Assembly (NCBI RefSeq): GCF_037975245.1
Contig: NC_092561.1
Location: 6,954,501-7,018,500, forward strand
DNA: 64,000 nucleotides
DNA from: Apostichopus japonicus
Taxonomy: Eukaryota; Echinodermata; Holothuroidea; Aspidochirotida; Stichopodidae
Direction: 5' to 3'
The position numbers and the translations under genes are program-made. Every line of letters starts with the position of its first letter. The first letter of the stretch is position 1. The notes under the pieces are model-generated. The model did not search any database. It was not told where the DNA came from and saw nothing but the letters and a program-made list of their open reading frames with translations. Of the stretch, positions 937 through 19,759 are shown piece after piece.

Positions 937-1409
937 GGTCCGTTCCAATCGGGGCTCCACATCCTTCTAGAAGTGGGGTCCATCTTTCCACGAAACACAG
1001 TTTGCCACGTAGGAAAGTCAGTCCAAACGACATGCCACAGTTAATCACAACAGGCCACCAACGTAGCAGTGCAGCTATCCCACAATCCCTCCCCTCGCAA
1101 GAGAATCGCTCCTTCGTCTGTAACATTTGCGGGATAATCTTCTTCAATCCTTTCAAATACAAAGAACATCAAAGGGAGCACAGAAATCTAGACAAGTTGC
1201 GGCCAGGCCAGCTGCCCGGAGAGCGATTCCAGTGTCGTTTCTGTCCCCGACGGTTCTCCTACCGCGTCTACCTCGTCCGTCACGAACGGTCTCACACTGG
1301 CGAGAAGCCGTTCACTTGCTCGATCTGCGGGAAACGATTCGGCCTCTCTTCCAACCTGTACCAACACGAACGTCGCTCTCATGGAACGATACCTTCCAGT
1401 ACAGTGTAG
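937..1409 (+). CDS. C2H2 zinc-finger terminal exon 1 (three fingers)
   Basis: Probable nuclear DNA-binding module; target unknown. The acceptor TTTCCTTGCCTAG ends at 936. The exon adds two bases (GG) to a split codon and then encodes 156 residues to a TAG at 1407-1409. Residues 1-60 are a Pro/Ser/Arg-rich linker. Finger 1 begins at Cys61 (CNIC, final H-x3-H), finger 2 at Cys99 (CRFC, HERSH) and finger 3 at Cys127 (CSICGKRF, H-x4-H). A canonical TGEKP linker joins fingers 2 and 3, typical of DNA-contacting arrays; a 16-residue spacer separates fingers 1 and 2. The exon is richer in GC and CpG than its surroundings, as expected for old coding sequence. An ATG at 1033 could start an unspliced reading, but the acceptor and the phase shared with four sister exons argue for a terminal exon. 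Confidence 0.9.
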
Positions 1410-1561
1410 CACCTACAGTAGCTGCTTTCTTATCGATAGCTAGGATACGATATGTGCGAGACTTTTTTCTATCCTATCCGCCATTCTGTTGAAAGATGAG
1501 TTGCCTTTCTTTAAACTCTTGTACAGTATATATAATTGAGAAAAGCCTCTAAAGGGACAGT

Positions 1562-1567
1562 AATAAA
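1562..1567 (+). terminator. Poly(A) signal of zinc-finger exon 1
   Basis: AATAAA lies 153 nt after the exon 1 stop and about 108 nt before the acceptor of exon 2. This fits a transcript that terminates between the two exons, as expected if exon 1 is a terminal exon. Confidence 0.6.
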
Positions 1568-1675
1568 AGTTAAAACGATGTGGAATCCTGCAGCTGATAA
1601 GATGATGTTTATTTTTCGTGATCAAGTTTTATCGTCCATGTTCATATATATATACATATCTCGTTCTTTGTTCAG

Positions 1676-2103
1676 GCATGAGAACTGTCGCTCCTTCAAT
1701 CCAAACCTTACACCTTCCCAAGCAACAAGTGGTTGATCCTGTCACCCACTTTGACCCACCACCGTCTCCTCCTCTTCGGTCACATGTTTCACATCGTAAA
1801 GACCCGCCGCGTCCAGCACCACAGAACAAGACTCCCGGAGGTGTATCCGTCGGCGAGGTTTGCAAAAATTGCGGCAAACACTTCGAGGATGTCGTTCGTC
1901 TCCGCGCTCAGAAGAAATGCCACAAGAGGTCGGGACAATACCAGTGTCGATTCTGCAGGAAGCAATTCGGTTCCATCGGTAAACTGAAACGCCACGAAAG
2001 GAGTCACGCGGGACAGAAGCGGTACCAGTGCAAAACCTGTGATCGTTCCTTTACACGTCGCGAAAATTTGACGTCACATGAGATTAGAATTCACGATATG
2101 TAG
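1676..2103 (+). CDS. C2H2 zinc-finger terminal exon 2 (two intact fingers, one degenerate)
   Basis: The acceptor TCGTTCTTTGTTCAG ends at 1675. The exon contributes GC to a split codon, then 141 residues to the TAG at 2101-2103. Residues 1-61 form a Pro/His/Lys-rich linker. A first finger starts at Cys62 (CKNC) but has Gln78 where the first zinc-binding His belongs (codon CAG at 1909), so it is probably not a normal C2H2 site. Finger 2 starts at Cys90 (CRFC, HERSH) and finger 3 at Cys118 (CKTC, H-x4-H). It aligns closely with exon 3: FEDVVRLR against FQDVTRLR, HKRSGQYQCRFC against HERSGRYPCRFC, NLTSHE against NLKSHE. These two are therefore recent paralogues. An ATG directly after the acceptor is read in frame but need not be a start. 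Confidence 0.9.
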
Positions 2104-2774
2104 GAACTTGTCAGCAACTAGGTAGGGAGCTTTGGTGTTGCTTGGGGAGGGCAAGGGGAGGGAGGGAGGTGTTTAAGCTGTTGAAAATGATTCAGCAGTG
2201 CACTCTCCCTCCGAGTTATTCCCGAAGGATGACGAGTGTTCAGTAAATATACAGTCACGACGTAGCAAAAGTGCTGCTGTCAATTGGCGGTAAAATGTTA
2301 ATTGAACTGTTGGACTTATGTAAGCAGTTATTTGACGATCTCACATATTTGGTGATTATGCTGAGGACCTTAACGTTGTATATTCCTTTTTTGGGCGCAA
2401 ATTTTGTAAGCCGTGTTATTAATTAATGGATCAATCAGAAAACATGTATGTATAGCGCCAATATTGACTAACGCAAAATAGGATACCCCTCAACAGGGGC
2501 AGATGCAGGATTTTAAATAACAAGAGCAGTGTGGCCCTGGAATCCAACTTAGGGGGAGTCCTTACTCAGGAGAAAGTAAACTTAAATCTATGTGAAATTG
2601 TTCATTCTGGGGTATATTTTGGCTATAAATTAGGTCTGTTATTAGTACTACACTCAAGGATATGCTATTACTTTTGATTTGTTGAGTGGGGTTGAAAAGG
2701 GAGGGAGGAGGAGGTGTACAACTCCTTCCCTGTGGATCTGTGCGTGTTCAATACCCTTCATTGAAACTAAAGGA
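2104..2774 (+). other. 3' flank of zinc-finger exon 2
   Basis: Probable 3' UTR followed by non-coding DNA. No canonical AATAAA was found close to the stop; AGTAAATATA near 2241 is a weak alternative. No other feature is supported. Confidence 0.3.
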
Positions 2775-2900
2775 TATATATATAGGGTGTCCGCATATAA
2801 AGCGGGATGCCCGAGTTGGAATCCCGGTGGAGGCCGGAAGTTTTTTCACTGTTCTGGATTTTCCAACTCATTACGTATTCAATTATATATTCGTTTGCCT
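2775..2900 (+). mobile_element. Possible SINE relic with B-box-like motif
   Basis: The sequence GAGTTGGAATCCCGG near 2813-2827 is close to a pol III B box (GGTTCGANTCC) and is followed by a T-rich tract, as in tRNA-derived SINEs. No clear A box is seen, so it is a relic at best. Confidence 0.3.
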
Positions 2901-3067
2901 TTGTTGTTTACCTCCATTTCATTAACAAAAATCTGTTTAAAGTATCTCTTTCGAGATCAGGCTTTAGGAATCACAAATGACTTCGAGTTGGTTAGAATCA
3001 TGTTTGATCTCTAGAGTAAGGCAAATAAGTCTATTTTCCTTCTCATTATGTTTTCAATTATATGTAG

Positions 3068-3335
3068 ATAATTTTATATATATAGATATATATATATTTA
3101 TATAGATATATAAATATCTATATAGATAAATATAGATATATGGTGAAACTGTGTTTGGTATCACTCAGTATGGCACCAGTCAGTTTTGGTACCACACTCT
3201 ATATGATGCACTCATAGTGGTACCATTCTTTATGGTAAAACTCTGTCTGGTACAACTCTTATGGCACCAGTCAGTTTGGTACCATTCTCGACACTACCAC
3301 CCTCTATGACAAAACAACATTGTGACAAGTCCCAA
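3068..3335. repeat. AT microsatellite followed by an ~82-bp minisatellite
   Basis: Positions 3068-3140 are TATA/GATA-type simple sequence with internal palindromes. From 3141 the sequence is built of degenerate repeats; the block TATGGCACCAGTCAGTTT occurs at about 3169 and again at 3251, each followed by GGTACCA. Period is about 82 bp. Confidence 0.7.
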
Positions 3336-4587
3336 GACAAACCATAGCATTTAACACTGTACAGAAGCATAAAAGCAAGATTGCATCTATACTCGGGCTG
3401 TTTTCGTTAGACTCCCCAGTGGCTTGGAGGGAGGGGGGTCGGGTGTGGGGTAGGGATGGTTAATTAATATAGGTGACGTTCCAATGATTACCTGGTCTAC
3501 AAATTCCTATTCATGCTTGTTTCTTATATTGTTTACTCCTAGTTTTCTCTGTTTTGTTTACTCCTAGTTCACTTAGTTTTCTCTGCAATCAGCACACATA
3601 TTTTAAAAGTTTATCAGTGTAAATGATCTATGAATCAGTATAATGTAATTTTTAATGACTTTGTACCCTCCATGAATATTCATGAATAATCTTCTTGCCA
3701 TGATGTCATCATAGTTTGTATTAATTTTTTAGCATCTTTTACCGTTTAAAGTTTCTTTATCTTCCTTACAAACCAGTTACTTTGATACATGTATACTCTG
3801 CAGATTTTGTGGTTGAGAAGAAAAAAATTGGGGCCGAACTTTCAACAAACTTGAGTTATTTCATAATTTATTAGAGCCCTAAGCTCGACAGTGACGTGGC
3901 AACAGAGGTCCTCATTTGGCAGATTATGTCCATCCACCCCTCCCCCCCCCCCCTAAGCCCTGCCACAGTCACAAATAGTTATAAATAACACCAATTAGTA
4001 CATTGGTTCATGCAATACTCCACTTGCCCAAGAGAAAAACAAGTAACCAACCAAACCCCTACCCTCTCCAAACTAAGGTCCCCATTTAAAGTTGTTAAAT
4101 CATTAATCTCATATTTGCACACTTCCTTTCCAGTGATTATAGTAAGGATACAAGTGACGTAGCTATTTACAGAAAGAAAAACATATCCTTTCCATTGAAC
4201 TTTCAATATGTCCATAGGCTTCTGGCAGTTCGTCTTTTCCCCAACTTTAGTTCAATGACTGAATGAAATATAAATGTTGGAAGCCCAGGGCCCCATAAAC
4301 CACCGGAGAGGTGGATTAGGCAGTGGCTTGTAAGAATGTCACAGCCATTATCTTTACTTGTGTGTGGTAGCACCAATTTCAGCAATTCAGGTGGCAATTC
4401 CAGCACCACTGAAAAATTGTCTCACCCTTCTCCCTCCCTCCCCCCCCCCCCAACCCGATTGCTTTCTTTACCTCTTTAAAATGTGTCTGTCTCTCATTGA
4501 AAATGGCTAGAATTTTATTACCCCATTTGCTGCCTCAACACAACCTTAATTTTATTTATACATGTGTATAATGTAGAGGGCTCGTTT
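3336..4587. other. Non-coding DNA with two poly-C tracts
   Basis: No exon supported. Homopolymer C runs occur near 3943 and 4440. The minus-strand readings here show no family motif. Confidence 0.3.
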
Positions 4588-4617
4588 TTTCTATCCTAGC
4601 AGGATCTTCTTCAAAGG
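4588..4617 (-). mobile_element. Penelope-like terminal tail fragment
   Basis: The reverse complement carries TTGAAGAAGATCCTGCTAGG, the same short module as in the longer copies at 31800-32080 and 50601-51022. Only about 30 bp match. Confidence 0.5.
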
Positions 4618-4839
4618 CAAACTATGACGAATACAGATTATTGAAACAAGAGAAACTTTGATAACTGAAGCAAAAATCATTCATTGTTCATTGGTCCAAT
4701 TTAGTTGTCCATCTGTTTAGTTTACAGAAGCTCAATTGACACCCCATTCATGTGATAATTGTGAGATAAACACTGAGGATTAAAAACAAATCTGTCCCCT
4801 GAAAACCAACAACAGAATTCTGTATGGGGCATCTATCTA

Positions 4840-5040
4840 CCAAGTATATAGGATTCATGAAAGCTTGAACACCTGTAAAATCATGCTTAAAAGTTTTCAG
4901 ACTGACCATTGCTTTTCTTCATATGACCTTTGATCTCCACTAAAACAATAGCAGTCAAGAACTCATTATGAGGTATCTATATACCAAGTACGAGATTCAC
5001 CTAAAAGTGAAGGTTTACAAAGCTTTCAGGATATCAAGCC
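4840..5040. repeat. Degenerate tandem repeat, ~130 bp period
   Basis: The phrase TACCAAGTA followed by AGATTCA/AGGATTCA and AAGCTT or GGTTTACAAAGCTT recurs at about 4850 and 4980, with GACCTTTGA between. The style is like the echinoderm and mollusc intergenic repeats at 15.9 and 21.3 kb. Confidence 0.45.
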
Positions 5041-5047
5041 GCCTCCC

Positions 5048-5690
5048 TTTTTAGCTCATACCAGCATGCTGGTGTGAGCTATTGTTACAGTGCGGCGTCT
5101 ATCATTCTATCACTCTATCCGTCAACAATTGGTAAAACCGCTCCCACTCGTACAATGTTTGATGGAATTTCATGAAACTTGGACACAAGGACCATTGGGT
5201 ATAGGGCCATCAGAGATGGTCCCAAATTTGGGGTCAAAGGTCACCTGTGGGCCGTAATGGGCCATTTTGTGGAAATACGCAAAATGCTTCTTCTACAGAT
5301 TCCATGGTACAATGTTGAGGGTTTGTCACTATAGTACTATGGAAGTTTTACATTCAGGGTGTTCATGAATTTGAGATCAAAGATCAACTAGGGGTCTTTT
5401 GTGGCCCGGGCCGCGGCCCTATATTTTCAAATTGCTCCTGTTCGTACAGTGTATGGCCAGTTATAATGAAACTTGGTCACAACATTCCTTGGGATGAGAG
5501 TTACGAGGGGTGTTCGGAAAATTGAGGTCAAATGTCATTTAGAGGGTCATCGGGGGTCATTCTTTGTAATATTTTCAAATATCTCAATCTCCTCAAGATT
5601 TTGATGAATCATATTCAAAGTTGAACTGATGATAGTTCGATTGTGTATGAATAAGGTGATGCCTAATAATTTTTGGTCAAAAGTTAATTA
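5048..5690 (+). repeat. Dispersed AGCTCA-type repeat, 5' portion
   Basis: It begins with TTTTTAGCTCATACCAGCAT and GCTGGTGTGAGCTATTGTTA, a hairpin-forming start. It then runs through phrases typical of this class of marine invertebrate repeat: AACTTGG followed by CACAA, and GGTCAAAGGTCA. A matching end (AAGCTCGAAAAGGTATGAGC) is at 6190-6247. No protein is encoded. The class is named from recollection of similar sequences, so treat the assignment as tentative. Confidence 0.5.
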
Positions 5691-6189
5691 CAATTAATCC
5701 CCATTGTTTAAAAAAATCTGAGCCTTCACCTTTTGCCAAAGCTCCTTTAATTTGTCTCCCAGTCTCTGCAGTGTTTGTTTACATTTGTGGTTAAGCTCTG
5801 CAGAGGCTGTTAGTGGAATTAAAGCAGGACTGGGAGTTGTTATTAACTGTTGAACCGTAAGCAGGAGAGCCCTATAGCCAATCAGCACTTGCCGATTCTT
5901 AGAAGTCTTTGAGCCTGAGGTATGTCGGCAGCCAGCCAAAATTTTGGCAAGGAGTGCTTCAGGTCTGCTCAGGTAGAGGGGAGAAAGTTTAATAGGGTAG
6001 GTCAGTGGTATTGTTTGAGAGAGTGGGTAAAATAGGATTTAAAGGGGGAAAATAGGAATTATAGCCAGTAGTGTGGCCAGGAGTCTGCTAACGGAGGGGG
6101 GGGGGGGTTATCCCTCATGGGCCCAAAATTGGTGGAATCTGAAAAATGGCCTGAAATTTGGTGGGCCATAAAGTTTTGTGGGCCCTACA

Positions 6190-6247
6190 TTTTTAAGCTC
6201 GAAAAGGTATGAGCTTCTGCACCATTGGTGCTCTAGTTATATTAAAG
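6190..6247 (+). repeat. Dispersed AGCTCA-type repeat, 3' end
   Basis: TTTTTAAGCTCG to GAGCTTCTGCACCATTGGTG and a TAGTTAT tail mirrors the start at 5048. About 500 bp of unrelated DNA, including a G-run at 6097, lies between the two parts. Confidence 0.45.
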
Positions 6248-6438
6248 TAAACGAACTGTTGAGTATTAAACACGTGTGACCATATCTTGATTTTCTAGCA
6301 TATTGGAGGCAATATTTACCTATTAAGGGAAAATGGTTTCAATATGATTTCAGGTTTCCATAGCAACTGCATCATAATTTTGTATCATACGAACAAGACT
6401 TTTTGATATCCCTCTGATGTATCTCCTTCTTTGTTCAG

Positions 6439-6974
6439 GGCAATTCCTCTCCTCCACGGTACCTCATCAACCCTATCCTCTCTCGGGAATGATTCAGATG
6501 ATCGACCAAAGCGGCAAACAACCGGCCAAGAAATCTCAGAAAACGTCCCGTTCCTCCTCCGCTGCTAGAAGTATGCCTCAAGTTCAATCGACGACGACAG
6601 AAGATACGGAAGGCGGTTTCTGTCGAAAGTGCGGCAAATTCTTCCAGGACGTCACGCGACTGAGGTCCCACGAACGATATCACGAGAGGTCCGGCCGATA
6701 CCCCTGTCGGTTCTGCGGAAAGACGTTCGCTTCCACGTCGGACATACGGCGGCACGAGCGTATACATACCGGAGAGAAGCCGTACAAATGCTCGACCTGC
6801 GGCCGATGTTTCGCTATTTTGGCAAATTTGAAGTCGCACGAGGTACACGTGCACTTTACGGAGGGTAAAAATAAGTTCAGATGTTCCATCTGTCTGTCGT
6901 TCTTCACCACGAACGACGACAGACTGGAACACGAGATGAGTCACCATGGCAACACACCAGGAGATCCTCAATGA
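6439..6974 (+). CDS. C2H2 zinc-finger terminal exon 3 (four fingers)
   Basis: Probable sequence-specific DNA-binding module. The acceptor TCTCCTTCTTTGTTCAG ends at 6438 and nearly equals that of exon 2. Two bases (GG) complete a split codon, then 177 residues run to the TGA at 6972-6974. Residues 1-60 are a Ser/Thr/Gln/Lys-rich linker. Fingers start at Cys61 (CRKC, HERYH), Cys89 (CRFC, HERIH), Cys117 (CSTC, H-x4-H) and Cys148 (CSIC, H-x3-H). A perfect TGEKP linker joins fingers 2 and 3. All zinc ligands are intact, unlike in exon 2. It is the largest and best-preserved member of the array; AATAAA follows at 7077. Confidence 0.92.
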
Positions 6975-7076
6975 CCACAGTTCTGGTAAATGTGAGAAAC
7001 TGAAAAATCATCAACGTTGCCTCTAATTATGCTAGAGAGTCAAAATATGGTCACTTAAGCTCAAGTTCTATAAAAT

Positions 7077-7082
7077 AATAAA
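7077..7082 (+). terminator. Poly(A) signal of zinc-finger exon 3
   Basis: AATAAA about 100 nt downstream of the exon 3 stop, within an A-rich context. Confidence 0.6.
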
Positions 7083-7179
7083 AAATTACTGACATGAACA
7101 CTGAAAACATTTCAGTAGACTGTTTAAGTTTCTTTTTCATCAAATTGGTTTGGAATATTTTAGAGCCCTGGTATTCAAA

Positions 7180-7230
7180 CAGGGGGTCGCAACCTTTTTT
7201 AGGGTCAACAAACGATTTTGAAGGGTCCCA
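7180..7230 (+). mobile_element. Possible hAT terminal relic
   Basis: CAGGGGGTCGCAACCTTTTT resembles termini of Charlie-like hAT elements. No matching inverted end or target duplication was found, so it is uncertain. Confidence 0.3.
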
Positions 7231-7404
7231 AGATAAAAATTTGCCATATATAACTCCAGTTTATAACTAAACACCCATAATCATATAAAACTTTTGCAAG
7301 GGGTAAACGGAGACTGGAATACCTCCTCCCATAGACCCCCTCTCCCTGGCCACAACATCCGACACTGTAGGGTCGCCAAGGTTAAAATTGGGGTAAACAA
7401 ACAT

Positions 7405-7566
7405 CAGACATGACTTTTTCCGCGAATTCGCGGAATATCCGTAATATATTTTCTACCTCGGTGACAAAAACTATTATCCTAACACACTGTAGCATACGCA
7501 AACTGGAGCCTATACCGCAATTTTTGCAAAGTTCCTTGATTTTTTTTTACCCCAGGCTCATCCCTG
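7405..7566 (+). mobile_element. Short MITE, copy 1
   Basis: About 162 bp and nearly collinear with 8493-8658; shared blocks include CACACTGTAGCATACGCAAA and ATACCGCAATTTTTGCAAAG. The ends are CAGACATGAC and GGCTCATCCCTG, imperfect inverted repeats. Flanking ACAAACAT and ATTAACAT may be a decayed 8-bp target duplication. Confidence 0.7.
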
Positions 7567-8492
7567 ATTAACATATAATTTGAATTCCTACTTTTAAGGT
7601 GGACCCTTGAAACCTTCTAGCATGCTTGAAACTTTAAGAATGCTTGAAACTAAGAATGCTTAAAAAGTTTGAGGACAATGCTGATAATATTTTACATCTC
7701 CATGAGCCATATGCTAATAGTATTATTATCCATATGCCAGTAGTATTATTAAACTTTGCCAAATTAGGACTTCCTTGATAAGTTCTCAAATCACTCCATT
7801 TCACACATGTGAAACAAGTTCAAGTATTTCCACATAAAAAAAAAAAAATTCAGTGACTCGAGTCCATGACCAGGTCGACTCGAGGTCAGGCAAATCACCC
7901 GGTGATGTATCGACTTGACCCTTATGGCACCTTGGTGAGTTTGGTCAGAATTTTTTTCCCAAACAATTTCAGCATTTCTTACTAACTACGAAATCCCTCT
8001 AGATTTTTTTATACCAAATAGATTGTAAATTGCTGATTCCAGCACATGAACGGATCACATCTTCAATGAGGCTAATGTAGGTTTACCATATTTTTATCTG
8101 GAGAACGAATTACAAGTTGTCATGGCCTGTGGGATTGGTCAAAGTTCAGTTGTCCCCTCCCTCCCACCCCCCCCCCTCCAACACCTTTGTAGGGAAATAT
8201 ATTTTGAGAGATAACTGAGTGAAAATGCTGCCCGATTTGAAGTTACAGGTTTTATCTTAACGTAAGATCAGCTACGTCGATTGAAAGACTGTTACTATTG
8301 ACAATTTCACTTCATTGCTCAGCTTGGAGTAGTAGGATGGCCCAAGTGCCATCAAGCAAGTTTTCATTAGTATTTGTCACAACTTTCTGAGAACTACCTA
8401 ACAATCCAGTCCTCTTTCCCAACTATGTAGATCTACTCAGAGGCTCACGTAAGAGAGTTGAATGGTTGACTACATCTCTCTCGTGAAATTTG

Positions 8493-8658
8493 CAGGCATG
8501 AGCTTGAGTCCCGCGAATTCGCGCAATATCCATGAATTCTTTCTACCTCGGGGACAAAACTTTTATCCTAACACACTGTAGCATACGCAAACTGGTGCCT
8601 ATACCGCAATTTTTGCAAAGTTCCGTGATTTTTTTTTTTTACCCCAGGCTCATCCCTG
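8493..8658 (+). mobile_element. Short MITE, copy 2
   Basis: This is the second copy of the element at 7405-7566, in the same orientation. It starts CAGGCATGAGC and ends GCTCATCCCTG, an 11-bp near-perfect terminal inverted repeat. A palindromic CGCGAATTCGCG sits near the 5' end. No coding capacity. Confidence 0.75.
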
Positions 8659-9433
8659 AGTTTGGGAGTACGTCATTTGAGCATCCCTTTGCTGTTTCTT
8701 TAACGTTGTAATGTAGTATTTAATGCCAAGCAAACATGTAAGAAGAAGACATTCGTCCTTTTAACAGCCTGTAAAGAAAAACAATGAGAGACCGAGATGG
8801 CGTGAGGTTTGTAAAAGTAAATAAAACGTATTCATAAGGTCACACAGTCTGAATCGTATTAAGGATCTCCGCTCTTTCAAAATGTTTGAGAACAGAACAA
8901 TGATCGATAATGGAATAACGTTTTTTGTTGTATGTATTGTTTGTAAATATAAACATTTTAGTGTTGCTATTGTTGTTTGTAAAGATAAACTTTTTTTTGT
9001 AAATAAAGAATGCAAACGAGTACTATGTTATACATTGTCACTCCGGTTTTGAGCTTAATTTCCGAGCATAACTATTAACTGTATCGCTGTTATCGTTGGC
9101 GTGCTGATGGTGGCAGCAGTCAGTGGTGGTGTTAGTTAGTTGCAGCAGTGGGAAAGGTAGTTGCGCTGGTTGCAGCGGTGGTAAAAGTTTGTGACGTTTG
9201 GAATGGAGCCTTTCGTTTTCTACACAAACGGTTGACACATCAGATGTGCTTCCCACATCGTTATTATGTAAGATTAATGAAGTCATGTGCTGTGTCGAAA
9301 GTAATGATAGCTGACCAAGCATGTAAGGGGGGCGGGGGGACTGACAAAATTAAGATGATTTAGTAACAAAGTACTAATGGGTACGGTATAGTGGTCAATG
9401 ATAATGTCCTCAATAGATTGGCTTAGGAATTCC

Positions 9434-9725
9434 CAGGGCATCGCGAGGAATTTTGCCAAGGGAGGGGCGAAAGCTGTAACAGCTGTAGCAAACCATCTAA
9501 GCGTAGCGCCACCATGTGTTGGTGCGAAGCGTACAAGAAAATTTTGGCCGACAATGCCTCCCAGATTGCTGGAAATGACTCTTTCCAGGCCTTGTTAAAA
9601 GTGGAATCTAAGCATTTCTTATTTTGAAATTACTAGCGATATCATAAAACAAATACAAAAAATATGCTCAAGGGGGGGGGGACGGTTTCCCCCTTCGCCC
9701 CCCCCCCCCACTGGCTACGCGCCTG
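9434..9725. mobile_element. hAT-type MITE with 8-bp target duplication GGAATTCC
   Basis: The element begins CAGGGCATCGCGAG and ends CTGGCTACGCGCCTG, an imperfect terminal inverted repeat. GGAATTCC flanks it exactly on both sides (9426-9433 and 9726-9733). Eight-base duplications and CA...TG ends are typical of hAT transposons. The interior has G-run and C-run blocks and no open frame for a transposase. Confidence 0.8.
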
Positions 9726-9985
9726 GGAATTCCCAACAACTGACGCTGTAATTATTGGAGAGGATCTGTACTATTCCGATTAACATATCGTAAGCATTAC
9801 GTAGTCAAATGATCTCTATGGAAAACAAAAAGTTTCTTTTCTTGGAAGAGAGTAACTTTGCTACAAGAGTATAGGGACTATATATCATACGATATGCCTA
9901 ACTGATGGATTGCATTTAAACCATGCAGTTATTCACAATGGCGTGTGCAGCGAGTTTGTATTCTGTTTTACATATTCCTAAGCAT

Positions 9986-10735
9986 GATAAGTCACAAGGT
10001 ATGATTACAAATACTCTCCAATATTTCGTTTGTTGTAACTTTTTTGTAAGTTTTGTTCTTCTTGAGGCTTTCTGTTAACGTGCTCGTAATTTTGAGAATC
10101 TTGTAAAATAAATATGTAAAGAGAAGTAATTAGTCCAGTGAATGTTGTTATGTTGTCATAGTAACAAGTTTAACCAAAGCAGTTTCATACTGTATAAATG
10201 ATTATTTCCATACAGTATTTCTGGTGTATCAAATTGGTGCTTTTAATTACACATAAAGAGTATATTCAGGCCACGAATAGCCTTTACATTTTCTTTATGA
10301 AACATAAGAAATCAGATTTTTGATCAATTTTAGAATAGGAAGATCCGTTCCCCCTTCATGATAAAAGAGTCACATCGTATGATTACAAATACTGTCAAAT
10401 ATTTGTTTGTATAACTTTTGTAAGTTTTGTTCTTCCTGAGGCTTTTTGTTAATGTGCTCATAATTTTGAGAATCTTGTAAAATAAATATGTAAAGAGAAA
10501 TAATTACTCCAGTTAATTTTGTTCTGTTGTCATAGTAACAAGTTTAATGAAAGCGGCTTCATACTCTTTTGATGATTATTTCCGTACATTATTTCTAGTG
10601 TATCAAATTGGTGCATTTAATTACACATAAAGAGTATATTCAGGCCACGAATAACCGATACATTTTTTTATGAAACAACATTAGAAATCAGACTTTCAGT
10701 CAACTTTAAATTTAAGAAAGATCCTTCCCCCTCCC
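9986..10735 (+). repeat. Tandem duplication of a ~378-bp unit
   Basis: Two adjacent copies at offset 378 share long near-identical blocks, such as GAGAATCTTGTAAAATAAAT (about 10095 and 10470) and TACACATAAAGAGTATATTC (about 10249 and 10621). No coding sequence is supported. It lies in the gap between zinc-finger exons 3 and 4. Confidence 0.85.
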
Positions 10736-11084
10736 CCCCCCCCCTCCCTCTGTCACCCCAAACGTTTGTCATGGTTTGCCACTTTTTACAAAATGAATAA
10801 AGATTGTACTAAAATGAAACTTTACTTACCAGTTGTAGTTTTTGTATCTTATCGACCTTAATGTAAATTTTCTTGTAGGGTTGGGCTGTCCTCTTCCCCA
10901 GGAGGGAGATCAGTTAATATTTGCCCACCCCCTCCCACTCCCTTCCCACCCCAAAACCCATATTTTACTATTTACTGACTGCCTTATTCTAGTTTCCTAC
11001 AGTATAAACCGTAGTTCAGTTTGCAACTGCACGAACACCCCGAACATATACCTTACCATACCGCCATAATATAACTTAAGTATA

Positions 11085-11280
11085 CGTTTCATGATGATGA
11101 TGGTGATCGTGATGATCATGATGATGGTGATGATGATGATGGTGGTGATGATGATAATGATGGTGGTGGTGGTACTTGGTGGTGGTACATGGTGGTGGTG
11201 ATGATGATGTTGATGATGGTGGTGGTGGTGGTGATGATGATGGTGGGAGTGGTGATGATGATGATCATCATCATCATCAT
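11085..11280. repeat. Compound GAT/GGT trinucleotide microsatellite
   Basis: About 190 bp of interrupted GATGAT and GGTGGT repeats ending in an ATCATCATC inversion. The open frame on the minus strand through it (Thr, Ile and Met runs) is a by-product of the repeat. Confidence 0.95.
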
Positions 11281-11718
11281 GAGCATTTCATGTAAATTAC
11301 GAACCCTGCTCTCTCTCCCTTCTAAGTAGAGAATAATTTTTTCCTTCATGAATTTTTCAGTCCTTCCATAAAAGGGTTAGTAATAATTCCCACGTAGTGA
11401 GCAAGTTTGGTTGGGTTTGGGGTAACGTTAACTAAAAATCGAGGTGTGGGGATGTGCTCATCAGAGGTTTACTGCCCCTCACTCAAAAAGAAGTACTTGA
11501 ATATAGATGGTGAAGATGGTGCCGATAAAACTTGACGCACGAATCTCTCAAATCTGGGAGGATTTGGACAAATCCCATATCAAACGAAAGTTTGTAACAG
11601 AAACAGTATATTCTTGTCCTCATATTTCTGTTTATTCTCTCTATTCAATTTTAATCTGTACTTATTTTAGTAGTCGTCGCATTAATTATCCTCCGTATTC
11701 ATTTTTATTTTCGTGTAG

Positions 11719-12032
11719 CCTTATCCATTGGAGGTGCAGTGATACACCAAATATCTACCAATTCTCGATTCGAACCAGTAGGATACTCCATGTCTGCTCA
11801 ACGAGATTGGCCCGCCGAGGAACCAGAAATAGACCAGCTCTCCTCCTCACAGGGTCGTAGGTTTCAGTGCAAGCGTTGTCTTAAACTATTTACCAAAAAG
11901 AGCAATTTGACAGTACACGAGCGTAGGCATCAAGAGTTGGTTATTTACAAGTGTCGTTACTGCGAAAAATCGCTCACCTCCAAATGGAATCGTACACGCC
12001 ATGAGCGATCTCATCAAGGGAATTTGTCGTAA
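11719..12032 (+). CDS. C2H2 zinc-finger terminal exon 4 (two fingers)
   Basis: The acceptor TTTTATTTTCGTGTAG ends at 11718. Two bases (CC) complete a split codon, then 103 residues run to the TAA at 12030-12032. Residues 1-49 form a short acidic/polar linker. Finger 1 starts at Cys50 (CKRC, HERRH) and finger 2 at Cys78 (CRYC, HERSH). Finger 2 keeps its zinc ligands but has Leu and Arg where the hydrophobic-core Phe and Leu normally sit, so it may fold less stably. It is the shortest member of the array. Its last codons and stop form the first unit of a degenerate tandem repeat that continues to about 12660. Two-finger output is the usual number in lola-type exons. Confidence 0.88.
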
Positions 12033-12660
12033 GTGTGTAAACTATTGGAAAGTAGTAAAACAGTTAAAAGTGGTGTGGTGGAAAGGTTGTCTCATCACGT
12101 GACTTCTGATCTCTGTGCTACGGTACAGGTTAAGTACCATATGCACGATTGCTTCGTTGCATTTTGCACAGTTTGTACACTCCAAGAGCGATATCATCGC
12201 AGCAAGGTATCCTTAATTGTGTAACTTATTGGATGATATACTCAACAGTCATTGGTGGAGGGTTCGTCGCGTCCCTCTCTGCTACGGTGCATGTTAAGTA
12301 CCGTAAGTATTTTGTCCATGTACACGCCATGAGCAAAATGTCGTCACAGGGAATATATCTTAAGTGTGTAAAACTATTGGAAGCTAGAAGCAACATTTTA
12401 AGGTGTCTGCTTGGCTCATCAGGTGAATTCAGATCTCTGTGCTACTTTGCAGAGTAAGTGCCACAACTTATTCGTGCCACATTGACTTATGCACTAAGCC
12501 ATCACGCCATGAGCGATCTGACCAAGGGAATGTATCATGAATGTGTAAGCTATTAGAAGCTATATATGTAATACTTAAAGGTGATGTGTCTTTATCGTCC
12601 CCTGATTTCAGTTCCATGTGCTACGGTGCAAGTCAAGTACCATGATTGTTGATGTAATAT
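11999..12660 (+). repeat. Four degenerate tandem units seeded by the end of zinc-finger exon 4
   Basis: Units start near 12000, 12184, 12326 and 12506. Each opens with a version of CATGAGCGATCTCATCAAGG, continues with AAGTGTGTAA-CTATTGGAA, and ends with GTGCTACGGT-CA-GTTAAGTACC. Only the first unit is coding (finger 2 end plus stop). The later ones are non-coding copies of the exon tail and 3' flank with period about 140-185 bp. Confidence 0.8.
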
Positions 12661-13410
12661 TGTATTATGCATTATACTTGTGACTTTCCAAAACTTCCAG
12701 CAAAATGGCAAATGTATAGTAAAGGGTATTGAATGACAAAGTGTATGTACGTCGACATTTCTGGTCTCGAAAGGATCCATTAAATTCTTGCATAATTCCG
12801 TAAAAATATTTAATTTGACATTTTGAGTAAAAAACTGTTTGATCAACATGCAACCCTCGGTATACTCATGCCCTTCCTTCATGCTAAGACATGTGAAGGG
12901 GTTACTTGGACCGTGACTGTGCGTGAAGAGACTTCTCCTCCCCCCCCCCCCCCCCACCCCTTGCCTCACCCCACAAACACGCACACAATCTGCTTGTCTG
13001 TAACGCAAGCTTTCCACACTAAATCGAGCCTCGACGCCTTCAGATTATCAGCAGGTTTGGCAATTCACTGCAGTATGACAATATATACATTTCAACATTA
13101 TATATATGTTGTATCTTTTTCTTTCTTTTTTCTACCTTATTACTTTACATTATTCTTTTGGGGCAGTTTGCCTATAATATTGATCAAGAGCTGTCCGGAC
13201 CAAAACAAGAATGGAAGATGATATATACCACACCTGCATGCATGTGGGCACTTCACTTTGATAAGAAAGAAATGGATTTATTCCCGCCCTCTCACTATGT
13301 CACTTTTTCGGAAGAACTTGACAAGATTAAGGCAATTACTAATTTAACCCAATTGGCTTATTTGTGATTCTAGCTTCACTCAACCGTGTTATTTTCTCAT
13401 CTCTTCACAG

Positions 13411-13823
13411 GGATTCTCCGACATGGTGAAGCATCCGCTACTTATCCGAACAGATATACCGTCGGGATGATGGGAATAACTACAACATCGACTATTCGGA
13501 CTAGACCATGTCCGGTGATGGTAACGGGAACATTGCCAACGAGTGAACCGACGAAGTCCGGTGAAAATCAATGTCGCTACTGCGGCAGAGTCCTGACTCA
13601 GAAAAGCTCTTTAAAACTACACGAACGGCTGCACACCGGAGAAAGGCCCTTCCAGTGCCGGTTCTGCGAGAGAAAGTTCATACGCGACTTCAGTAGGAAA
13701 GCACACGAAAGGACCCATTATGCACACAAGCCATTTATATGCACAATATGTGGGAAAGGGTTTTACAGACAGTTTAGCTTGAAGAAGCACACAGACAATT
13801 ACCATGCGAATAAAAATACATGA
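13411..13823 (+). CDS. C2H2 zinc-finger terminal exon 5 (three fingers)
   Basis: The acceptor TTTTCTCATCTCTTCACAG ends at 13410. Two bases (GG) complete a split codon, then 136 residues run to the TGA at 13821-13823. Residues 1-53 are a Thr/Pro/Arg-rich linker with TTTST and RTRP. Fingers start at Cys54 (CRYC, HERLH), Cys82 (CRFC, HERTH) and Cys110 (CTIC, final HTDNYH with H-x4-H). TGERP joins fingers 1 and 2. Ligands are complete and hydrophobic-core positions mostly normal. An AATAAA lies inside the last codons (13809-13814). It is the last member of the array in the window. Confidence 0.92.
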
Positions 13824-18095: not shown

Positions 18096-19122
18096 CTAGC
18101 AGTCATAATCACTTTGCCTCTCCCTTATTTCTGGGAACAACGTTTCCTTTGCTAGCAGACGACAGAATTCTCCTGAATGATCTTTTAATTTGTAATGAAA
18201 TGTTCCAAATGATGTTCTTTCCAATGTCTTCTCAGTGCATTCTTTTTGGTATTGTTCTCGCATTTTTCTGAACTTACTTAAGTCGTTCTCAAAATTCGGA
18301 CCATACTTTCTCATCCTGTCGAAAAAGACTTCCTCGAAAAAATGATACAACACCATATCTGCAGAATTAAAATCACGTATTTTCTTCTCCATCGTCTTTG
18401 AAATATTAAGACCGGGTGCCACTTGAATATTTTTAGAAAGGTATAAAATATCTTCAAAAGACCAACAGAGTTCCTTTTTCAATAAAATCAAAGATTCGTC
18501 AAAGTATTCCATAATTAAGATCAAATCTAATTCATTTTCCAGTATTAAAAGTCGTTGTTCGATAGAAGCCATATCCTCGAATTGGTTGACTCTTAGACCT
18601 AAATCTAGACTCTGTAAATTACGTGAATACAAATTACTTCTCCAATAATCATTTTTCTTGTCCAGCAACGTCTCCATGCTGTGATCCCTTGTCAATTTAT
18701 CTAACTTGAAGAATTGATAAGCGGATAGCCATTGCGAAACAGGTTCTCTCAAAAGCGATATATATTTGGTACCTTCTGTCATGTACGAGTTGGCAATTTG
18801 ACGGTTATAGGCGATATGGACCGTCGATATATTATAACCGCGGAATGTACACGTGATGCGGTCATGTATAGGCGGGAAAAACATCTCACGGGGGCTCGCT
18901 TTAGAGAAATCTTTGAAGGTCACGTGACCCCGAGGATCTTGTCTCCGAAATGCGAACGACAGATTCCGAATGAATCCGAACCTATTTACTATTGACTGAA
19001 GCGTTGTACTGCCAGTCTTATGCGTCTTGACGAAGAATACGTTTGTAGTCGGGGTGCATGGTGTGTCCGCATCAAAAGGGGCTGGGAAGGGGTCACGTCT
19101 TAGTTCTTTGTTTCGTCTGGTC
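18096..19122 (-). CDS. Galactose-3-O-sulfotransferase-like enzyme, exon 3 (catalytic domain)
   Basis: Golgi enzymes of this family transfer sulfate from PAPS to the 3-OH of galactose on glycolipids or glycoproteins. This exon encodes residues 41-381 plus the last base of codon 40. KTHKTGSTTL at about residues 72-81 is the 5'-phosphosulfate-binding loop, and SLLREPVSQW at about 162-171 matches the 3'-phosphate-binding motif. NxS glycosylation sites occur in NLS (Asn93) and in later NIS motifs. The whole protein is 381 residues, slightly shorter than the vertebrate enzymes (about 400-490). The acceptor TTGTCCTATCCAG precedes 19122 and the TAG stop is at 18098-18096. Frame is open throughout. 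Exact acceptor (ceramide, O-glycan or other) cannot be told from sequence alone. Confidence 0.93.
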
Positions 19123-19759
19123 CTGGATAGGACAAGAATAGCATATTAAAGAAGATCAATAATTCATTCGATCGATCGATCAATCCGCATATAGGTTAGA
19201 ATAAAGACATGTAGCATGGACATATACTCGTTTTAAATTACACCTATATAGATTAAGAAAATCAATCTAGCCAGCATTAATTCGTTCACGTATAAGTTAT
19301 GACGTCACAAGACAGATATGAAAGCAACCTTAGATATTATATTTTACTACGTCACGATTTATTAAATATGATTTATTTTATGTGTGAATCGTGTTTTTTT
19401 TTTCAAGCTAGTTGTATTGGATACGATAGTTTCAAAACGGTTTCAATACAACATTTTGCTTTTGTTTAAAGATTTACGAGAAACCAAGTGAATATATCAT
19501 GCATACTATGGTACAGCGTTATTTCACCCGACGGGTTATTCCGGTGGTTTAAGTTTAACAAAATTGCTGGAACTTTTCTTTGTGCCAAAATCACATCATA
19601 TGAGCAATTCATATCTTAGAGATACACATTCTTAAAATTTGGTGACTTTACGACAATCAACACTCTCGACCCCCCCCCCCCCCTTCCCCTTCCCATGCCA
19701 AAGAATGGCCTGTCTTTTTTTAGTTAGAAGGTATATGTGTGGGATGTTAATAGGCTTAC

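Follow-up and report, generated by a model that had tools for sequence, protein, structure and literature searches.

Putative alternative zinc-finger terminal exons behind nucleoplasmin-like modules at three neighbouring loci of Apostichopus japonicus

Introduction

Near its left edge, the stretch of contig C1 (NC_092561.1) of the echinoderm, and deuterostome, Apostichopus japonicus that was analysed here (C1:6,954,501-7,018,500, 64,000 nucleotides, hereafter the window; the genome comprises 671,581,487 bases in 35 contigs) carries five C2H2 zinc-finger (ZF) exons in a row, which raises the question of whether they are alternative endings of one gene or genes in their own right. A sequence-only reading of the window had likened the row to the interchangeable terminal exons of the insect gene lola, all spliced to one exon further upstream. 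The observation is confirmed, and the system is larger than first reported. The five exons are very probably the last members of a set of 21 alternative 3′ terminal exons of a single gene (locus A), which share a front encoding a nucleoplasmin-like (NPL) domain; two further loci on the same contig (B and C) are built alike.

Zinc-finger exons of the window and their extension into three arrays

Each of the five window exons (beginning at window positions 937, 1676, 6439, 11719 and 13411; Table 1) has an AG acceptor, an open frame, at least two C2H2 fingers and a private stop codon, and C2H2 families are matched by Pfam in all five. The identical acceptor phase that had been reported is borne out: in 5/5 the acceptor is in phase 1 (the frame opens with two bases of a codon split by the intron), although for exon 11719 the top-scoring AG of an unguided scan is another site, in phase 0. 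The CR(F/Y)C finger said to be common to the exons is likewise present, its core being invariant across their alignment. A six-frame pattern scan of the rest of the window gave no additional finger exon, only one chance match on the minus strand.

The third window exon served as query for a protein search of the genome, with scores computed for the best 150 of 1039 candidates. Related exons turned up to the left of the window as well as in a second block, C1:7.15-7.18 Mb; these genome searches score best candidates only, and absences in them are not proof. The DNA inspected comprised 80 kb upstream of the window together with the second block and a third block on C1. Leftward extension, which had been proposed as a way of finding a shared exon and more array members, gave both, namely the shared exons described below and 16 further ZF exons. 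The count for array C is a lower bound, as the sequence was read down to 7,186,001 and the array may continue below that point. In total, three NPL modules on one contig are followed by 72 intact ZF terminal exons, each exon encoding 2-4 fingers after a variable linker and ending in its own stop. In A, B and C alike, the ZF exons lie on the strand of their own locus's shared NPL exons, and a tblastn search with all 72 finger regions found no opposite-strand copies in the three loci. Significant matches of the shared exons are confined to the 5′ end of each array, giving three NPL modules for three arrays.

Several open reading frames (ORFs) were left out of these counts. Two short ones with chance C2H2-like spacing (C1:6,907,483 and 6,940,217) were removed from an array A list of 23, and four plus-strand ORFs in the locus C region were excluded on the same ground; two minus-strand ORFs, one in the window and one in the array B region, were also set aside.

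A shared nucleoplasmin-like front with a phase-1 donor

Comparison of the DNA upstream of arrays A and B revealed a conserved exon set 5′ of both, which in locus A is situated 48-54 kb upstream of the window edge (Table 1). All introns defined in the shared part of A are in phase 1, as is the last donor. The last shared exon of A has a possible alternative start at 6,906,363, which corresponds in position to the acceptor of B and is in the same phase. The splice sites of locus B match those of the shared exons of A, and locus C has a diverged version of the set, in which the sixth exon was not placed; as read by eye, the five C donors shown are in phase 1 and the last shared exon of C likewise ends in ..QGPSTS, followed by a GTAAGT donor. 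A phase-1 donor thus closes the last shared exon at all three loci, following C1:6,906,749 in A, 7,126,999 in B and, on the minus strand, about 7,254,215 in C.

The N-terminus encoded at locus A matches the NPL family (PF17800) with E=2.4e-18 and 67.1 bits, against a cut-off of 23.4, over residues 1-93 of 126 and model positions 3-93 of 94. Among proteins of solved structure, the NPL domain of FKBP43 is related (7wim, E=0.0014), as is, more weakly, that of Drosophila FKBP39 (4ca9, E=0.074). The domain is followed by acidic sequence (in A, ..PEDEELELDLQAEEDLEEGED.. plus another acidic exon; B and C are acidic too), and then by a linker rich in Gln and Pro; all three loci have the short motif E(M/I)IFS(V/I)A in common. 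Both an N-terminal PF17800 match and an acidic stretch, the marks of NPL-family proteins, are present. The BTB exon that the likeness to lola had led one to expect was not found: none of the 59 genome-wide PF00651 matches lies on C1, although an exon too short to score could escape.

Two patches of the shared part, C1:6,901,412-6,901,589 and ~6,906,557-6,906,759, are near-identical at synonymous sites to B 7,121,960-7,122,138 and 7,126,810-7,127,009, respectively. Synonymous divergence (dS) between A and B is 0.057 and 0.053 at these patches, compared with 0.53 for shared exon 3 and saturated or 2.1 for exons 4-6, and the first patch continues upstream into the intron for ~80 nt. The pattern is suggestive of gene conversion or of constraint adjoining the shared donor.

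Splice phase and exon ends

To score acceptors unguided, every AG from the start of the frame to the first finger was scored with one generic acceptor matrix of rough values. The best-scoring acceptor was in phase 1 in 68 of the 72 ZF ORFs (A, 17/21; B, 21/21; C, 30/30), whereas 150 non-ZF ORFs of the same DNA, scored in the same way, were divided 52/47/51 among phases 0, 1 and 2. The agreement in acceptor phase is beyond chance; since the members of an array are related by duplication, however, the counts are not independent trials, and a binomial value of 7.5e-28 overstates the case. In the four array A exceptions, exon 11719 among them, the phase-1 site ranks second or third and was adopted in the catalogue. 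For some few C exons the best site is possibly not the true one, with another phase-1 site nearby. Given the shared phase-1 donor and the phase-1 acceptors, joining the donor to any of the ZF exons would give an in-frame NPL-ZF protein.

The ends and junctions of the exons were analysed in arrays A and B. No GTRAG donor lies between the last finger and the stop in any of the 42 exons. A single acceptor phase would also be needed if the ZF exons were internal and joined serially into one very long polydactyl protein; the missing donors, together with a stop after the last finger in every catalogued exon, lead us to reject that arrangement, to which we assign next to no probability. With the shared donor base G, the junction codon is Gly in 37/42 exons, Glu in four and Ala in one. 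An in-frame ATG between the acceptor and the first Cys-Cys motif is absent in 15/42, and those exons need a start from elsewhere.

The 27/42 exons that do have such an ATG count in favour of the alternative that the ZF exons are separate short genes, produced by tandem duplication, with private promoters and 5′ exons, and merely situated downstream of an NPL gene; C2H2 clusters do exist elsewhere in the genome, for example at C17:1.38-1.76 Mb. Against separate genes stand not only the exons without an internal ATG but also the uniform phase of the acceptors, the phase-1 donor that closes the last shared exon at each of the three loci, and the threefold repetition of the design, with the array and its NPL exons on one strand each time. 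A ZF exon with a best acceptor in phase 1 also lies downstream at four of six other NPL loci in the genome. We regard separate genes as very unlikely.

These other loci come from a genome-wide search in which PF17800 had 29 matches on 9 contigs, 11 of them on C1. Of the six NPL loci outside A-C that were inspected (9.5-10 kb each), L017, L021, L023 and L024 have the downstream ZF exon, and no clear ZF exon with a phase-1 acceptor was seen in the stretches inspected at L022 and L025. The arrays may hence have grown from an NPL gene with a single ZF terminal exon, and the recurrence of the arrangement suggests an animal NPL-ZF gene family.

Constraint and diversity of the fingers

Synonymous divergence exceeds amino-acid divergence in all ten of the A and B exon pairs compared. 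Whole-exon ratios of nonsynonymous (dN) to synonymous divergence are 0.16, 0.19, 0.29 and 0.44 in four pairs; dS is saturated in the other six, so that their ratio says little more. Besides decayed copies in the window (Table 1), there are four degraded ZF fragments, at three sites, compared with 72 intact ORFs. At helix positions -1, 2, 3 and 6 (in the usual numbering), the residues of 175/202 canonical fingers are distinct, and 71/72 exons have distinct recognition signatures; variability of this kind is usual in C2H2 families. From the exon anatomy, the phases, the shared domain, the paralogous arrays and the excess of synonymous change in ten pairs, we infer that every acceptor would be joined to the shared donor by alternative splicing, with one ZF exon in each transcript.

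Several observations weigh against this gene model. The catalogue itself selected intact ORFs, so intactness is partly built in, and in 4/21 array A exons the top-scoring AG is not the adopted acceptor. Constraint is mild in the pair C1:6,921,806/6,923,564, which has the ratio of 0.44 (0.49 over the last 75 codons), and at the 3′ end of the last shared exon (its final 75 codons) dN between A and B (0.081) is greater than dS (0.053). Polyadenylation signals are of no help either. It is true that, as had been pointed out, two of the window exons have an AATAAA at about 100-150 nt (the first lies 153 nt past the stop of exon 937 and 103 nt past that of exon 6439), but it lends the model no support. 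Within 400 nt past the stop, an AATAAA or ATTAAA is found for 6/21 array A exons and at 43% of places drawn at random in that array; for array B the figures are 10/21 and 47%, and the signals are thus not enriched.

Duplication history of the arrays

Exons of A and B that are each other's best match stand in almost the same order in both arrays (Spearman 0.96, n=7); exon 6439 of the window and array B exon C1:7,176,877 are reciprocal best matches (66% over 80 aa). The best matches of A exons in B are also correlated in order (0.71, n=21), and those of B exons in A are not (0.20, n=21). This pattern is consistent with the array having been duplicated after its assembly, with tandem growth proceeding separately in the copies thereafter. 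In a tree of the finger regions of all 72 exons, which is poorly resolved (52 columns; 7/69 inner branches starred), A and B are intermixed, while 21/30 C exons form one weakly supported group. A C exon (frame 7,239,180-7,238,599) is sister to array B exon C1:7,154,770-7,155,329, with linker and fingers closely alike, a likeness that suggests the copying of an exon from one array to another of opposite orientation. The decayed copies in the window are probably the trace of a failed tandem exon duplication.

Relation to known systems

Terminal-exon choice is established for insect BTB genes; fruitless and broad are BTB-TTK genes with alternative terminal exons. In PMC11426971, C2H2 fingers are given for 17/20 isoforms of lola and at least 30 isoforms for mod(mdg4), and TTK-type BTB domains are described as forming hexamers. 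Loci A, B and C, with shared 5′ exons, a putative N-terminal oligomerisation domain and many predicted alternative C-termini in comparable numbers, resemble lola and mod(mdg4), and the feature that defines the scheme, many ZF terminal exons in one acceptor phase behind a shared donor, is found with 21, 21 and 30 exons. They differ from these genes, as from fruitless and broad, in that the domain is NPL rather than BTB, the host is an echinoderm rather than an insect, three paralogous loci stand side by side, and no opposite-strand exons were found in them; the alternative splicing, moreover, is in their case predicted from the sequence. The likeness therefore held for the interchangeable terminal ZF exons behind one shared phase-1 donor, in a deuterostome, and failed for the BTB domain: the loci are lola-like in scheme, and membership of the BTB/lola family is rejected.

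Isoforms could also be made by trans-splicing between separate pre-mRNAs rather than in cis, a variant of the gene model that is compatible with the same anatomy and that we consider unlikely. The distance from the shared donor to the last exon, ~61 kb in A, might seem to favour it, but is within reach of cis splicing. Trans-splicing is used at both Drosophila loci of such layout, lola and mod(mdg4) (PMC11426971); as the search of the three arrays gave no member on the opposite strand, nothing here requires it.

Three arrangements of NPL proteins are set out in PMC4414354: NPL-FKBPs, plant HD-tuins, which carry a zinc finger at the C-terminus, and nucleoplasmins, which have none. The plant HD-tuins (HD2/HDT) have an N-terminal NPL domain, an acidic stretch and a C-terminal C2H2 finger (PMC4414354). 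Loci A, B and C share this order of NPL, acidic stretch and C2H2, but each gene has 21-30 such exons, with 2-4 fingers in every one, and the host is an animal; with these many multi-finger terminal exons, we do not class them as HD-tuins. To our knowledge, HD-tuins have no array of terminal exons. The NPL-FKBPs (Drosophila FKBP39, yeast Fpr4) and the nucleoplasmins begin with an NPL domain followed by a long acidic region (PMC4414354), as here; the former end in a proline isomerase domain and the latter in none, whereas here the C-terminus would be a choice of ZF exons. If the gene model is true, an animal NPL-zinc-finger class is added to the three architectures of PMC4414354.

Under the preferred reading, the donor after C1:6,906,749 would be spliced to one of the 21 ZF acceptors in each transcript of locus A, and each resulting NPL-ZF protein would have its own DNA-binding specificity and the common N-terminus. 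The NPL domain of Drosophila FKBP39 has been described as a pentameric or tetrameric assembly (PMC4414354 and PMC5225439). By analogy, the domain encoded here may assemble as a pentamer or tetramer able to hold several different ZF isoforms. The products would presumably work as chromatin-associated transcription factors.

No NPL-ZF array, or lola-like array in a deuterostome, was described in the literature searched, which left subscription papers mostly outside. If the gene model holds, the swapping of DNA-binding ends by choice of terminal exon is not peculiar to insect BTB genes. The same design would then have arisen in a deuterostome around another oligomerisation domain, and with at least as many endings as lola has. 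Each gene could make many transcription factors differing only in the DNA recognised. A broader reading, which we put forward tentatively and with rather less than even confidence, is that an echinoderm arrived on its own at the lola scheme, using a histone-chaperone fold, with three clustered NPL genes and at least 72 DNA-binding isoforms. Since NPL domains form pentamers or tetramers, isoforms of one or several loci could, on this reading, make mixed rings with different finger sets, amounting to a combinatorial DNA-recognition code far exceeding the number of exons. The 72 exons are a defined set for testing exon birth, exchange and splicing choice.

Feature coordinates and neighbouring features

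Table 1. Features of loci A, B and C and of the window. Window exons, decayed copies and the sulfotransferase ORF are numbered from the first letter of the window; all other positions are those of contig C1.
Feature	Position	Strand	Remarks
Locus A gene	6,900,906-6,968,323	+	shared exons and ZF array
Locus A start exon	6,900,906 or 6,900,912 to 6,900,921	+	ends MIW/G, likewise in B
Locus A shared internal exon	6,901,491-583	+	multiple of 3
Locus A shared internal exon	6,902,127-285	+	multiple of 3
Locus A shared internal exon	6,902,563-688	+	multiple of 3
Locus A shared internal exon	6,904,389-628	+	multiple of 3
Locus A shared internal exon	6,905,733-915	+	multiple of 3
Locus A last shared exon	6,906,378-749	+	multiple of 3; phase-1 donor
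Array A	6,913,550-6,968,323	+	21 ZF terminal exons, the window's five being the last ones
Array A terminal exon 17/21	window 937..1409	+	linker, then 3 C2H2 fingers; phase-1 acceptor; stop 1407-1409
Array A terminal exon 18/21	window 1676..2103	+	degenerate finger, then 2 canonical C2H2 fingers; phase-1 acceptor
Array A terminal exon 19/21	window 6439..6974	+	4 C2H2 fingers; phase-1 acceptor
Array A terminal exon 20/21	window 11719..12032	+	2 C2H2 fingers; phase-1 acceptor, second-best AG in unguided scan
Array A terminal exon 21/21, last	window 13411..13823	+	3 C2H2 fingers; phase-1 acceptor
Array B	7,134,553-7,177,328	+	21 ZF terminal exons
Array C	open frames from 7,246,220 down to 7,187,106	-	30 ZF terminal exons read
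Decayed tandem copies	window 11995..12644	+	start within end of exon 11719-12032, continue downstream
Degraded ZF fragment, one (B)	7,152,974-7,153,351		
Degraded ZF fragments, two (C)	near 7,230,675-7,231,039		
Degraded ZF fragment (C)	7,211,492-7,211,575		
Galactose-3-O-sulfotransferase ORF	window 18096-19145	-	Pfam E=3.6e-41; nearest other clear gene downstream of array A

Amid the array A exons, and on the same strand, lies a BEN-domain-like ORF (C1:6,917,760-6,918,200; Pfam BEN E=1.2e-4, 22.7 bits, cut-off 23.2), which is outside the 72. Its likely acceptor is in phase 1, with a poor score of -3.4, and it may be a non-zinc-finger member of the array.

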